Under the pieces are notes generated by a model that saw nothing but the letters and a program-made list of their open reading frames with translations, had not been told where the DNA came from and made no database searches. Made by a program: the position numbers and the translations under genes. From Microbispora bryophytorum (GTDB taxonomy: Bacteria; Actinomycetota; Actinomycetes; Streptosporangiales; Streptosporangiaceae), in assembly GCF_006874465.1 (NCBI RefSeq), contig NZ_VIRL01000008.1, positions 62,001 through 126,000 of the forward strand: DNA of 64,000 bases, written 5' to 3'. This document shows, piece after piece, positions 56,299 to 62,589 of this stretch (position 1 is its first letter; every line of letters starts with the position of its first letter).

Positions 56299-58575
56299 AT
56301 GACAATCAGTGACGACGCGGTCTCGCTACGTAACTGGAAGTCCGTGCTCCGGCGTGACGTACCCGCGTCGCTGGTGGTCTTCCTGGTGGCGGTGCCGCTG
56401 TCGCTCGGCATCGCCGTCGCGTCCGGCGCACCGGTGGCGGCCGGGCTCGTCGCCGCCGTGGTCGGCGGCGTGGTGGCCGGCGCCCTCGGCGGATCCGTCG
56501 TCCAGGTGAGCGGTCCGGCCGCGGGGCTGTCCCTGGTGGTCGCCGAACTCGTCCACACGTACGGCTGGCGCGCCACGTGCGCCATCACCGTCATGGCCGG
56601 CCTCCTCCAGTTGGTCCTCGGCGGGCTCAAGGTGGCGCGGGCGGCGCTCGGGGTCTCCCCCGCCGTCGTCCACGGCATGCTCGCCGGGGTCGGCGTGGTG
56701 ATCGCGCTGTCCCAGTTGCACATCGTGCTCGGCGGTGCGCCACAGCGCTCCGCGCTGGAGAACGTCCTCGAACTCCCCGCCCAGATCCTCGACAACCACA
56801 CGCACGCCGTCATGATCGGCGTGCTGACGATCGGGGTCCTGCTCGTGTGGGGCCGCATCCCCCGGCTGCGCACCGTGCCCGCCCCGCTCGCCGCCCTGAT
56901 GATCGCCGCGCTGACGGCCGCGGTGACGGGCTGGGACCTGACGAAGGTGGACCTGAAGGGCGGGTTCTCCTCCGTCCAGGGACCTGTGATGCCGCAGGGC
57001 GACTGGCACGCGATCGCCGGAGCCGTCCTGCTCGTCGCCCTCCTCGCCGGAGTGGAGTCGCTGCTGACCTGCGTCGCGTCCAACCGCCTGCACGACGGGC
57101 CCCGCGCCGATCTCGACCGCGAACTCACCGCGCAGGGCGTGGCGAACGCGCTGTCCGGCGCGCTCGGCGGCCTTCCGGTGGCGGGTGTCGTCGTCCGGAC
57201 GACCACCAACGCGCGGGCGGGCGCCCGGAGCCGCTGGTCCGCGGTGCTCCACGGGGTGTGGGTGCTGCTGTTCACCACGGCCTTCGCCTGGATGATCACG
57301 TTGATCCCCCTGGAGGCGCTCGCGGCGCTGCTGCTGTTCATCGGCGTGCAGATGGTCAACCTCGGGCACGTACGCAACCTGCGCAGCCACCGTGAGATGC
57401 CGGTCTACTTCGTGACGATGGCCGCGGTCGTGCTGATCGGTCTGGCCGAGGGCGTGGCGATCGGCCTCGGGCTGGCCGCCCTGCTCGCCCTGCGCCGCCT
57501 GGCCTGGGTGTCGGTCGACGCACGGGAGACGGGCGAGCGGCGCTGGCGGGTGGTCGTCACCGGATCGCTGACGTTCCTCGGCGTGCCCCGGCTGACCGAG
57601 GCGCTGCGCGGCATCCCCGCGGGGGTCGTGGTCGAGCTCGACCTGCACCTCGACTTCATGGACAACGCCGCCTTCGAGGCGCTGCACGCCTGGCGGCTTG
57701 AGCACGAACGCACCGGCGGTGTCATCGACGTGGACGAGCCGCACGGCGAGTGGTACGCCGCCGCGATCAACGGCGTCCGCCTGTTCCCAGCCAGGATTCC
57801 GCCCCGGCACGACCGCTGGTGGCTGCCCTGGGCCTACCGGCGCCACTCCCGTCGCATGGACGCCGCGGCCGGGGACGCCGGGTCCTACGCCGTGCTCAGC
57901 GCGGACGGCGGAGGCCACGACGACGTCCCCGTGCTCTGCGAGCCGCAGGGCATGCCCGACCTGATGGAGGGGACGCGGGAGTTCCAGCGCAGGACCGCGC
58001 CGATGGTCCGGTCGGTGCTCCACCGCATGGCCCGCAAGCAGTCGCCGTCGCACCTGTTCATCACCTGCGCTGACTCCCGCATCGTGCCGAACATCATCAC
58101 CGCGAGCGGTCCCGGCGACCTGTTCACGCTGCGCAACATCGGCAACCTCGTGCCGCGCGCCGGCGCCGTGCCCGCCGACGACTCGGTCGCGGCCACGATC
58201 GAGTACGCGGTGAAGGTGCTCGATGTGCGCATGATCACCGTCTGCGGGCATTCGGGATGCGGCGCCATGGCCGCCCTGCTGGGCGAGGTGCCCGACCTGC
58301 CCGCGCTGCGCAGCTGGCTGCGGCACGGACGGCAGAGCCTGGCCAGGTTCGTGGCCGCCGAGTCGTGTGACGACGACGCCGGGCCGCTCGACCGGCTCTG
58401 CCGGACCAACGTGATCCAGCAGCTCGACAATCTGCGCACCCACCCGTTCGTGGACACCCTCGTACGGGCCGGGGAGCTGGAGCTCATGGGGCTGTACTTC
58501 GACATCGGCGCGGCGCGGGTGCACCTGCTGGATCGGGAACGCTTCACGCCGGTCCCCGAGCTGCGCACCGGCTGA
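56299..58575 (+). CDS. SulP anion (bicarbonate) transporter fused to beta-carbonic anhydrase
   Basis: A 758-residue fusion. Residues ~12-400 are a SulP transporter of about 11-14 helices (DVPASLVVFLVAVPLSLGIA, VSGPAAGLSLVVAELVHTYG, NALSGALGGLPVAGVVVRTT). A short STAS-like part (VVVTGSLTFLGVPRLTEALR, DFMDNAAFEALHAW) follows. Residues ~550-758 are beta-carbonic anhydrase with zinc ligands C590, H651 and C654 and the D592/R594 pair (ITCADSRIVPN, CGHSGCGAM). Coupled CO2 hydration and bicarbonate transport is the likely role; such fusions are known in actinobacteria. ATG at 56299; the domain order is as in known fusions. Confidence 0.9.
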   Translation: MTISDDAVSLRNWKSVLRRDVPASLVVFLVAVPLSLGIAVASGAPVAAGLVAAVVGGVVAGALGGSVVQVSGPAAGLSLVVAELVHTYGWRATCAITVMAGLLQLVLGGLKVARAALGVSPAVVHGMLAGVGVVIALSQLHIVLGGAPQRSALENVLELPAQILDNHTHAVMIGVLTIGVLLVWGRIPRLRTVPAPLAALMIAALTAAVTGWDLTKVDLKGGFSSVQGPVMPQGDWHAIAGAVLLVALLAGVESLLTCVASNRLHDGPRADLDRELTAQGVANALSGALGGLPVAGVVVRTTTNARAGARSRWSAVLHGVWVLLFTTAFAWMITLIPLEALAALLLFIGVQMVNLGHVRNLRSHREMPVYFVTMAAVVLIGLAEGVAIGLGLAALLALRRLAWVSVDARETGERRWRVVVTGSLTFLGVPRLTEALRGIPAGVVVELDLHLDFMDNAAFEALHAWRLEHERTGGVIDVDEPHGEWYAAAINGVRLFPARIPPRHDRWWLPWAYRRHSRRMDAAAGDAGSYAVLSADGGGHDDVPVLCEPQGMPDLMEGTREFQRRTAPMVRSVLHRMARKQSPSHLFITCADSRIVPNIITASGPGDLFTLRNIGNLVPRAGAVPADDSVAATIEYAVKVLDVRMITVCGHSGCGAMAALLGEVPDLPALRSWLRHGRQSLARFVAAESCDDDAGPLDRLCRTNVIQQLDNLRTHPFVDTLVRAGELELMGLYFDIGAARVHLLDRERFTPVPELRTG

Positions 58576-59826: not shown

Positions 59827-60474
59827 ATGATCTGGGTGGTTGTGATCGTCGCCGTGCTGGTCGTTCTCGGAGCACTCGGGGTGACCGGGCGCCTGCCGGG
59901 GGTCTCACGCCGACGGTCCGCGCCGCGCCCCCCGTCGGGCGGCCATCCGTCGGGCCGCGCCGGCCGGACCGCGCGGCCCGGTGGTCGTGCCCCGGCCGGG
60001 ACCACGGGGCCGGGCACCAGGTCCGGTGGCGGCACCGCTCCCGGCACGAGGCGCGGCACCACCTCCGGGGCGGGGGCCCGAAGCGGAGGCCGGGCCGCGG
60101 GCCGAGCGACGGGCGGCGAAGCGGGCGCGCGCGGCGGTGCGGCCACCCAGTCCGGTCCGCAGCCCGGTGAGATCTGGTGGGCCGACGTGCCCTACGAGGA
60201 CGGGCCGGGCCACAAGGTGCGCCCCTGCGTGGTGCTCAGGACACACCGGGACGGCGCCGAGGTCCTGAAGATCACAAGTCAGGACCGCAGCGACCGCTCC
60301 GATCACGTGGAGATCCCCACCCGCACCTGGGACCCGGACGCCGACCACAACAGCTTCCTCGATCTCACCGGTCCGGTCCGCGTGCCCGTCGCCGACTTCC
60401 AGGACAGGGCGGGCCAGCTCGACGCGCGCGTCTGGCGGCAGGTCTGCCGCCTCCACGAGATCACCCCGAACTGA
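59827..60474 (+). CDS. Membrane-anchored PemK/MazF-family protein
   Basis: A 215-residue protein in three parts. There is an N-terminal membrane helix (MIWVVVIVAVLVVLGALGV), a ~90-residue Gly/Arg/Thr/Ser/Ala linker (residues ~25-115), and a C-terminal PemK/MazF domain. The domain has PGEIWWADVPYEDGPGHKVR, the conserved RPCVVL, then LKITSQDRSD and DLTGPVRVPVADF. MazF toxins cut mRNA. Whether this one is active when tethered to the membrane is unknown, and no antitoxin gene is adjacent. ATG at 59827 with a weak ribosome binding site. The linker and anchor are the unusual part. Confidence 0.8.
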   Translation: MIWVVVIVAVLVVLGALGVTGRLPGVSRRRSAPRPPSGGHPSGRAGRTARPGGRAPAGTTGPGTRSGGGTAPGTRRGTTSGAGARSGGRAAGRATGGEAGARGGAATQSGPQPGEIWWADVPYEDGPGHKVRPCVVLRTHRDGAEVLKITSQDRSDRSDHVEIPTRTWDPDADHNSFLDLTGPVRVPVADFQDRAGQLDARVWRQVCRLHEITPN

Positions 60475-60577: not shown

Positions 60578-61327
60578 TCACCGTGACGACGCGGCCCCTT
60601 CCGAGCCGCCGCTCGGCGGCAGACCCGCGGCGATGCCGTCGAGCAGCCGGTCGAGACCGTACGCGAAGCGGTCGTCGGTGCCCATGTACTCCCGCCCGCC
60701 CTCCTTCGTCATCCGCTCCAGCATGGGATAGTTCCCCGTCGCGATGAGCGACTGGATATAGGACAGGTGCTGCGCCAGCCGTTGCGCCAGCGTGAGCCCC
60801 GACCGCCGGAGCGCCTCGCTATCGGCCAGCTCGCTCTGGATGTAGCCGTTCACGTACGCGAAGACCGCGCCGACGAGGGTCAGCATCCTGTCGACGCTCA
60901 GGCCAAGGCCGTCGAGCATGCCGAGGGCGGTCTCCATCAGACGCGCGCTGTTCGGGCCCGCCTGCGGGCGGCCGGCCGCGAGCGGTGCGAGCCACGGGTG
61001 GCGCAGCATGGTGCGCCGGGCCTGCCAGGCGAGCAGGCGGAGCCCTTCGACCCAGTCATCCGGTGGCCGCCGGTCCTCCGGCAGATACCCGCCCACCGCG
61101 GTGTCGACCATGAGGTCGAACACCTCGTCCTTGCTCGTCACGTACCGGTACAGAGACATCGTGCCCGCTCCGAGATCGGCGGCGAGCCGCCGCATGGAGA
61201 TCGCCTCCAGCCCCTCGGCGTCGGCGATGCGGATCGCCGCCTGCGCGAGTGCGGCGCGACTGAAGCTCGGCCGCGGCCCGCGGGCAGGCCGCTCGGGTCG
61301 CATCCACAGGTTCTCGTGGCCCGTCAT
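60578..61327 (-). CDS. TetR family regulator (tetracycline-repressor-type C domain), regulator of orphan atpB
   Basis: A 249-residue TetR regulator with the usual HTH at residues ~25-75 (FSRAALAQAAIRIADAEG, ISMRRLAADLGAGTMSLYRY, TSKDEVFDLMVDT). The long C-terminal domain is of the TetR_C_1-like type (GLRLLAWQARRTMLRHPWLA, GAVFAYVNGYIQSEL). ATG at 61327 with GGGA upstream. It is divergent from an orphan F0 subunit a gene, with a good promoter and a perfect 17-bp palindrome between them. It therefore most likely represses atpB until an unknown inducer binds. Confidence 0.82.
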   Translation of the reverse strand: MTGHENLWMRPERPARGPRPSFSRAALAQAAIRIADAEGLEAISMRRLAADLGAGTMSLYRYVTSKDEVFDLMVDTAVGGYLPEDRRPPDDWVEGLRLLAWQARRTMLRHPWLAPLAAGRPQAGPNSARLMETALGMLDGLGLSVDRMLTLVGAVFAYVNGYIQSELADSEALRRSGLTLAQRLAQHLSYIQSLIATGNYPMLERMTKEGGREYMGTDDRFAYGLDRLLDGIAAGLPPSGGSEGAASSR

Positions 61328-61354
61328 CGTTGATCGTCCCAGGTCGTCGCACTA

Positions 61355-61413
61355 TTGCGTACACGGTACTCGGTATGTACGATCGCATCGATAAAGTGAG
61401 TACGTCGTACTCA
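61355..61413 (+). promoter_or_regulatory. Promoter and perfect operator of the orphan atpB gene
   Basis: TTGCGT (61355-61360) and TACGAT (61378-61383) are separated by 17 bp, a near-consensus actinobacterial promoter. TGAGTACGTCGTACTCA (61397-61413) is a perfect 17-bp palindrome at about +8 to +24, where a bound repressor would block transcription. It ends 28 bases before the atpB ATG. Confidence 0.65.
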
Positions 61414-61441
61414 GTTTTTACGGCCGGACGAGGGGGTTCCC

Positions 61442-62230
61442 ATGCCCGCCAGCCTCGCCGGGGACGAGTTCACCGTGCCCGGTCTCGAACTGTTCGACTT
61501 TCCGCCGCTGTGGCCCGGCGCGCCACACTGGCTGAACAAGCCCGTAGTGCTGGCCGTGGTCGGCGTGATCCTGCTGTGCGCGCTCGCATGGGGGGCGTTC
61601 GCACGGCCGAAGCTCGTCCCGCGCGGCCTGCAGCACCTCGGCGAATACGGCTATCTGTTCGTCCGCGACCAGGTGGCCCGGCCGTTCCTCGGCGCCGACG
61701 CCGAGAGGTGGATGCCGTTCCTGCTCAGTCTGTTCTCGGTGATCCTGCTGTGGAACCTTTTCGGGGTGATCCCGGGCGTACAGTTCCCGGTGAACTCCCA
61801 CATAGCGTTCCCGGTGGTGTTCGCCGTGGTCGTGTACGTGATCAAGCTCTATCTCGGCTTCCGGCATCACGGGGTGGGCGGATATCTCAAGAGCCTGATG
61901 TTCCCGCCCGGCCTGCCGAAGCCGCTCGCCCTCGCGTTCTACGCGCCCCTCGAACTGCTGCACACGTTCGTCTTCGCGCCGTTCACCCATGCCGTACGGC
62001 TGTTCGCGAACATGTTCGCCGGGCACCTGCTGCTGGCGTTCTTCAGCGCGGTGGGATTCTGGTTCCTCGTCGAGCGCCCCACGGTGCCCGGGTTCCCGGT
62101 GGGCCTCCTCGGCGTGGCCATGGCCGTCCTGATGACCGGGCTGGAGATCTTCATCCAGTTCCTGCAGGCGTTCCTGTTCACCATGCTGGCGGCCATGTAC
62201 ATCGGCAACGCCCTGAACCCGGACCACTGA
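61442..62230 (+). CDS. atpB: Orphan F0F1 ATP synthase subunit a
   Basis: A 262-residue subunit a with five to six helices. It forms the two proton half-channels against the c-ring. Conserved residues are present: the essential Arg R186 (HAVRLFANMFAGHL), H195, E235 and Q242 (GLEIFIQFLQAFLF). R186, the H195/E235 swap pair and Q242 match the functional set, so the protein is probably active. It starts MPASLAGDEFTVPGLELFDF; ATG 61442 after GAGGGGG. Unlike normal atpB it is not followed by atpE, atpF or the F1 genes. A TetR gene precedes it divergently and a YiaA-like gene follows. Confidence 0.92.
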   Translation: MPASLAGDEFTVPGLELFDFPPLWPGAPHWLNKPVVLAVVGVILLCALAWGAFARPKLVPRGLQHLGEYGYLFVRDQVARPFLGADAERWMPFLLSLFSVILLWNLFGVIPGVQFPVNSHIAFPVVFAVVVYVIKLYLGFRHHGVGGYLKSLMFPPGLPKPLALAFYAPLELLHTFVFAPFTHAVRLFANMFAGHLLLAFFSAVGFWFLVERPTVPGFPVGLLGVAMAVLMTGLEIFIQFLQAFLFTMLAAMYIGNALNPDH

Positions 62231-62240
62231 CGCGAGTTCG

Positions 62241-62260
62241 TACTCACCGGTAACTGAGTA
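62241..62260 (+). promoter_or_regulatory. Second TGAGTA-type inverted repeat before the yiaA-like gene
   Basis: TACTCA-CCGGTAAC-TGAGTA has perfect 6-bp arms identical to the half-sites of the atpB operator (TGAGTA/TACTCA), with an 8-bp spacer. It lies 44 bp before the yiaA-like start and suggests the same regulator. Confidence 0.5.
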
Positions 62261-62304
62261 TTGGCGCTCATGTCCGGCAGGCGGACGTCGCGGACGATGG
62301 CGTC

Positions 62305-62589
62305 ATGGCGCAATCGGTGAAACCCCCGACGACAACGGCCTTCTACCTTCAGGCCGTCATCTCGTTCGCGATCTCCCTCGTGGGCCTGGCGGCAGGCATC
62401 ATCTACCTCCCGGTGACGACCTGGGTGCGTTCCTTCCTCGCTCTCGGGCTGATGTACGTGGTGACCTCGACGTTCACGCTGGCCAAGTGCGTACGGGACC
62501 GGCAGGAGGAGGCGACCGTCGTCAGCCGGGTCGACCAGGCCCGGCTCGACAAGCTCCTCGCCGAGCACGACCCCTTCCGGGCCGAATGA
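62305..62589 (+). CDS. YiaA/YiaB-like two-helix membrane protein
   Basis: A 94-residue protein with a YiaAB domain: two hydrophobic helices (AFYLQAVISFAISLVGLAAG and SFLALGLMYVVTSTFTLA), a YLPVTTWVRSFL loop and the KCVRDRQEE end. A short charged tail (DQARLDKLLAEHDPF) follows. The function of YiaA/YiaB is unknown; stress-related roles have been suggested. It follows atpB by 74 bases, with a matching inverted repeat between, so it probably belongs to the same regulon. ATG 62305 has only a weak upstream ribosome binding site. Confidence 0.78.
   Translation: MAQSVKPPTTTAFYLQAVISFAISLVGLAAGIIYLPVTTWVRSFLALGLMYVVTSTFTLAKCVRDRQEEATVVSRVDQARLDKLLAEHDPFRAE

Follow-up and report, generated by a model that had tools for sequence, protein, structure and literature searches.

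The locus

The window, a 64,000-nt stretch of the Microbispora bryophytorum genome (contig NZ_VIRL01000008.1), carries a stand-alone gene for ATP synthase subunit a, here termed atpB2. It lies divergent from a TetR-family repressor gene, from which it is separated by promoter-like and operator-like elements, and is followed by a yiaA-like gene (Table 1). Elsewhere in the window, a single gene at 56299–58575 joins a SulP-type transporter to a STAS-like domain and a carbonic anhydrase, and 59827–60474 encodes a PemK/MazF-like domain after an N-terminal hydrophobic segment and a long low-complexity stretch rich in Gly, Arg and Thr.

Table 1. Features at the tetR–atpB2 locus (positions in the window)
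Feature	Position	Strand	Remarks
tetR, SimR-like TetR-family repressor, 249 aa	60578..61327	-	TetR_N + TetR_C_1; divergent from atpB2
-35-like element TTGCGT, putative atpB2 promoter	61355..61360	+	17 bp to -10-like element
O1, operator-like site TGCGTACACGGTACTCG	61356..61372	.	GTAC-N3-GTAC core as in O2
-10-like element TACGAT, putative atpB2 promoter	61378..61383	+
O2, operator-like site, 17-bp palindrome TGAGTACGTCGTACTCA	61397..61413	.	Arms perfect, central base excepted
atpB2, stand-alone ATP synthase subunit a, 262 aa	61442..62230	+	PF00119, E 1.6e-52
atpB2 codons 163–178, segment differing between orphan and operon copies	61928..61975	+	Codon 174 at 61961–61963
TACTCA-N8-TGAGTA dyad before yiaA	62241..62260	.	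Outside the tetR–atpB2 module
yiaA-like gene, 94 aa	62305..62589	+	PF05360; flanking gene

A second gene for subunit a

AtpB2 matches the Pfam family ATP-synt_A (PF00119) over its full length (178.9 bits, cut-off 33.9) and also exceeds the TIGR01131 cut-off, and the gene is complete, as the first-pass annotation of this DNA had stated; all four residues named there (R186, H195, E235 and Q242) are present. Subunit a is normally the product of a single-copy operon gene. The Microbispora genome has exactly two PF00119 matches, atpB2 and a main atpB that lies on a different contig inside an ordinary atp operon, and the two proteins are of equal length and 68 % identical. The isolation of atpB2 was likewise borne out, with no other F0/F1 gene in the part of the window scanned for protein families (about 35–62 kb). 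The only atpE of the genome sits in the main atp operon; hence AtpB2, if it works, must use the common c-ring.

Among the Microbispora copies, the median dN/dS of atpB2 is 0.24, suggesting purifying selection. The structure model of AtpB2 (mean pLDDT 76) matches solved a subunits, and residues 160–211, including R186, form one long helix in it. These data support the view that atpB2 encodes a second, TetR-linked and apparently functional subunit a. Among plasmids, the one close match came from Nonomuraea and sits on a record of 11.9 Mb that is catalogued as a plasmid. No description of stand-alone or extra atpB copies was found in the literature searched, which took in only a minority of subscription journals.

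The repressor gene and its candidate operators

The predicted domains confirm that the divergent gene belongs to the TetR family, and the closest solved relative of its product is SimR (43 % identity, E 4.8e-52). SimR occupies two operators situated between divergent genes, and the antibiotic simocyclinone releases it (PMC5812520); by analogy, the ligand of TetR may be a natural product.

A putative promoter precedes atpB2. Its -35-like stretch recurs in most TetR-linked relatives, which carry TAGGCT or TATGGT at the position of the -10-like element. The palindrome O2, downstream of this promoter, had been called perfect; its arms are, but its central base is not, and it is joined by a second candidate operator, O1, which fills the spacer between the -35-like and -10-like elements 41 bp upstream of O2 (centre to centre). 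The O2 sequence TGAGTACGTCGTACTCA has its sole exact copy in the genome here and is kept in relatives, and almost every TetR-linked locus in other genera carries both O1 and O2.

The genome has one other near-match pair of such sites, on contig C93 (locus L093, 2990–7980; G000:C93, about 39.0–44.0 kb). This pair precedes a second SimR-like TetR gene (43 % identity), which lies divergent from genes for an FMN reductase and a two-gene heterodimeric ABC exporter. A wider regulon of TetR was rejected, since the sole other pair thus belongs in front of another SimR-like TetR gene.

The tetR–atpB2 pair is conserved without yiaA

When TetR was compared with 343 genomes of the family, every one of the 26 best matches (≥56 % identity) stood next to an orphan atpB, and those that followed dropped to 51 %. 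The link to TetR holds in relatives. Of 15 Microbispora genomes, 10 carry the divergent pair (in one case frameshifted) and five have no atpB2; the pair also occurs in Planotetraspora, Microtetraspora, Sinosporangium, some Nonomuraea and further genera. TetR and AtpB2 fall into groupings that agree by genus. The divergent pair constitutes a conserved module. The frameshifted copy (genome G010; L056, 5085–5871) has gained one base near codon 139, and the TetR gene beside it is intact; it is either a pseudogene or a sequencing error.

The first-pass annotation had also proposed a YiaA-like partner, and this part of it fell away. In Microbispora genomes lacking tetR–atpB2, yiaA comes after pemK with the same GTACTCA...TGAGTA dyad in front of it, and yiaA was not found beside atpB2 in other genera. 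We therefore rejected YiaA as a partner of AtpB2: of the suggested tetR–atpB–yiaA order, only tetR–atpB extends to other genera. The dyad before yiaA does exist, but it goes with yiaA, and its occurrence in genomes without the module speaks against its being a TetR site.

Other stand-alone atpB genes

We sorted the orphan atpB genes into five groups: I (TetR-linked Streptosporangiaceae), S (Streptosporangium), II (Nonomuraea), III (Actinomadura) and IV (near Actinoallomurus). Their surroundings differ. The Nonomuraea orphans are nearly universal, being found in most of the genus at a conserved locus beside HAD hydrolase and beta-N-acetylhexosaminidase-like genes, and no dedicated regulator adjoins them there. 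The Streptosporangium gene has a TTTGTGAAAGnTTTCACAAA-type palindrome. Orphans of Actinomadura and Thermomonospora either are preceded by a long dyad and accompanied by a different TetR (TetR_C_6 type), or have a MerR gene as neighbour, the latter with or without a mycothiol-dependent isomerase. In the Actinomadura orphans (L260–L263), a dyad with 15-bp arms, GATACGCCTGTACCA...TGGTACAGGCGTATC, lies between the different TetR gene and atpB. The orphan near Actinoallomurus has a SimR-like TetR neighbour.

A single origin of all orphan atpB genes was rejected by AU tests (p-AU 5e-5 and 8e-82). The Nonomuraea orphans changed position between analyses: a quick tree grouped them with Nonomuraea operon copies, while a more careful tree built without masking placed them with the TetR-linked group (support 85/91), and masking of residues 157–185 made them leave group I and join the operon copies of their kin. 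This segment therefore bears a shared signal that is absent from the rest of the protein, which may reflect either convergence or partial gene conversion. With 157–185 masked, one clade of I, S and II was not rejected (p 0.18); for this reason, we put the number of times that a stand-alone atpB appears to have arisen in the family at at least three, and do not claim five independent origins.

Residues replaced in the orphan proteins

The essential arginine R186 and the half-channel residues H195, E235 and Q242 are invariant in all orphan groups examined, and H183 and N190 are also kept in the TetR-linked Streptosporangiaceae group. Against 98 operon copies, 73 positions are at least 97 % conserved, and only one of these, residue 174, is replaced in all of groups I, S, II and III. 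It is Ser in 98 % of the operon copies. Group I has Tyr or His here, group S has Gln or Tyr, group II has Glu apart from one His, and group III has Gln; group IV, the one group of five to retain Ser174, changes N190 instead. Changes are concentrated in residues 160–180 in group I (p 2e-4) and group II (p 5e-6), and the enrichment of changes there was not significant in groups S and III.

Two further observations concern this segment. In the Nonomuraea orphans (L201–L220), Ile or Val stands in place of Glu171, which never varies among the operon copies, and Glu in place of Ser174, as if the carboxylate had been shifted by one helical turn. In genome G225, the atpB within the normal atp operon (L075, 5044–5814; L221) has orphan-type Gln174, Phe176 and Thr178; this is the only genome of the family set with a Gln174 operon copy, and it also has an orphan atpB.

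By alignment, E171–S174 corresponds to E145–S148 of human ATP6, with Ser174 matching human S148 and yeast S175. Yeast oligomycin-resistance positions (oli2/oli4) may also fall in the 163–178 segment, a placement that our search did not confirm. The human and yeast serines lie in the matrix-side hydrophilic pocket, and yeast S175N blocks the proton channel (PMC5095641). In Mycobacterium smegmatis, the lagging-site contacts of bedaquiline are aL170, aP172, aI173 and aV176 (PMC9516385), which align with AtpB2 residues 167, 169, 170 and 173 (given a one-residue length difference downstream), and the squaramide-resistance change aK179N of Mycobacterium tuberculosis (PMC11672644) falls directly after the AtpB2 segment. 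The residues that distinguish the orphans sit next to the key arginine, in the segment of the a/c interface and the proton exit.

Possible roles of AtpB2

The first-pass annotation had suggested an inducible replacement subunit. A second, TetR-linked subunit a with differences at the a/c interface survives from that proposal, the YiaA partnership does not. The reading that fits best, at about even odds, is that tetR–atpB2 provides a ligand-induced replacement for subunit a, able to withstand an inhibitor that acts at the a/c interface. The SimR-like TetR would bind both operators and block the atpB2 promoter until released by a small molecule, probably a natural product. AtpB2 would then take the place of AtpB, joining the one c-ring that the two share and the other operon-encoded parts of the enzyme, and its altered cytoplasmic-side segment (163–178, with Ser174 replaced) would keep the proton flow while binding an a/c-interface inhibitor poorly or not at all. 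This reading draws on the conservation of a repressor of drug-sensor type, the shared c-ring, the retention of the catalytic residues and the repeated replacement of one serine. Several observations weigh against it: group IV keeps Ser174, neither group S nor group III shows significant enrichment in 160–180, and no biosynthetic cluster was recognised in the 27 kb scanned upstream of the module (about 35–62 kb of the window).

The main rival is that AtpB2 is a physiological isoform of the proton path, serving at low proton-motive force, under pH stress or at a developmental stage, with TetR sensing a metabolite or an internal signal; we regard this as unlikely, yet still a serious contender. 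AtpB2 would here retune the cytoplasmic proton half-channel (its pKa, slip or direction preference), in keeping with the match of Ser174 to the serine in the proton exit of the human and yeast subunits (PMC5095641). Since S175N blocks the channel in yeast, changes at the matching site of AtpB2 could alter proton flow itself. The Nonomuraea orphans point the same way, both through the replacement of E171 by Ile/Val together with S174 by Glu, as if the carboxylate had moved, and through their nearly genus-wide presence; for orphans so widespread and with no adjacent dedicated regulator, a general role fits at least as well as tolerance of an inhibitor. Such tuning sits less easily with a regulator of the antibiotic-responsive SimR type and with the TetR or MerR neighbours of other groups, and the chemical diversity at residue 174 (Tyr, His, Gln, Glu) is more readily explained by loss of a binding site than by adjustment to a single value.

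The yeast S175N block could also be read as a hint that AtpB2 is a plug (PMC5095641), an induced and poorly conducting subunit that would keep the enzyme from hydrolysing ATP or leaking protons once an uncoupler or pore-former has collapsed the gradient. This is improbable: a plug would not need R186, H195, E235, Q242, H183 and N190, all of which are kept in the TetR-linked Streptosporangiaceae group. We think it very improbable that AtpB2 is simply a decaying duplicate, retained by chance and with no distinct role. The five Microbispora genomes without atpB2 and the single-base frameshift in G010 would suit decay, but the gene occurs in several genera with concordant TetR and AtpB groupings, is under purifying selection, keeps its operator-like sites and belongs to a set with repeated origins.

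The inhibitor-tolerance reading may extend beyond this locus. Inducible exchange of subunit a could be a general defence of Streptosporangiaceae and their kin against natural a/c-interface inhibitors, one that evolved repeatedly, each time with another sensor but with the same proton-exit serine replaced; we hold this tentatively, at somewhat short of an even chance. If it is true, the spare subunits and their repressors would point to natural inhibitors of the a/c interface that form a new class. Regulated exchange of a subunit would give cells a novel means to protect or retune ATP synthase, the orphan AtpBs would show which substitutions nature tolerates at the site targeted by anti-tuberculosis inhibitors of this enzyme, and TetR could become a biosensor for finding the compound behind the module.

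Comparison with known systems

AtpB2 resembles the F-type ATP synthase subunit a (AtpB, PF00119) in fold, in length and in all proton-path residues. It differs in standing alone behind a repressor-type promoter and in the replacement of Ser174 and its neighbours, and the TetR-linked AtpB2 group has one additional residue near 165.

Duplicated resistant target genes are a general concept in antibiotic producers. Like these, atpB2 duplicates an essential target, is altered close to a site where inhibitors are known to act and has its own regulator. Unlike them, it had no biosynthetic cluster recognised nearby (in about 35–62 kb of the window) and encodes a subunit of a multi-part machine, and resistance here is putative; no such case for subunit a was found in the literature searched.

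The alternate F1F0 ATPase (TIGR03306 and its operon) also brings a second subunit a into one genome. Assignment of AtpB2 to it was rejected, as AtpB2 reaches 52.4 bits against a cut-off of 302.1 for TIGR03306 and the genome has no second or companion c subunit.

The arrangement is also like the SimR/SimX repressor–exporter pair of the simocyclinone producer (PMC5812520), in that a SimR-like TetR gene lies divergent from its presumed target with two operator-like sites between them. The two systems differ in their targets, an ATP synthase subunit here and an exporter in the case of SimX, and their repressors share 43 % identity.
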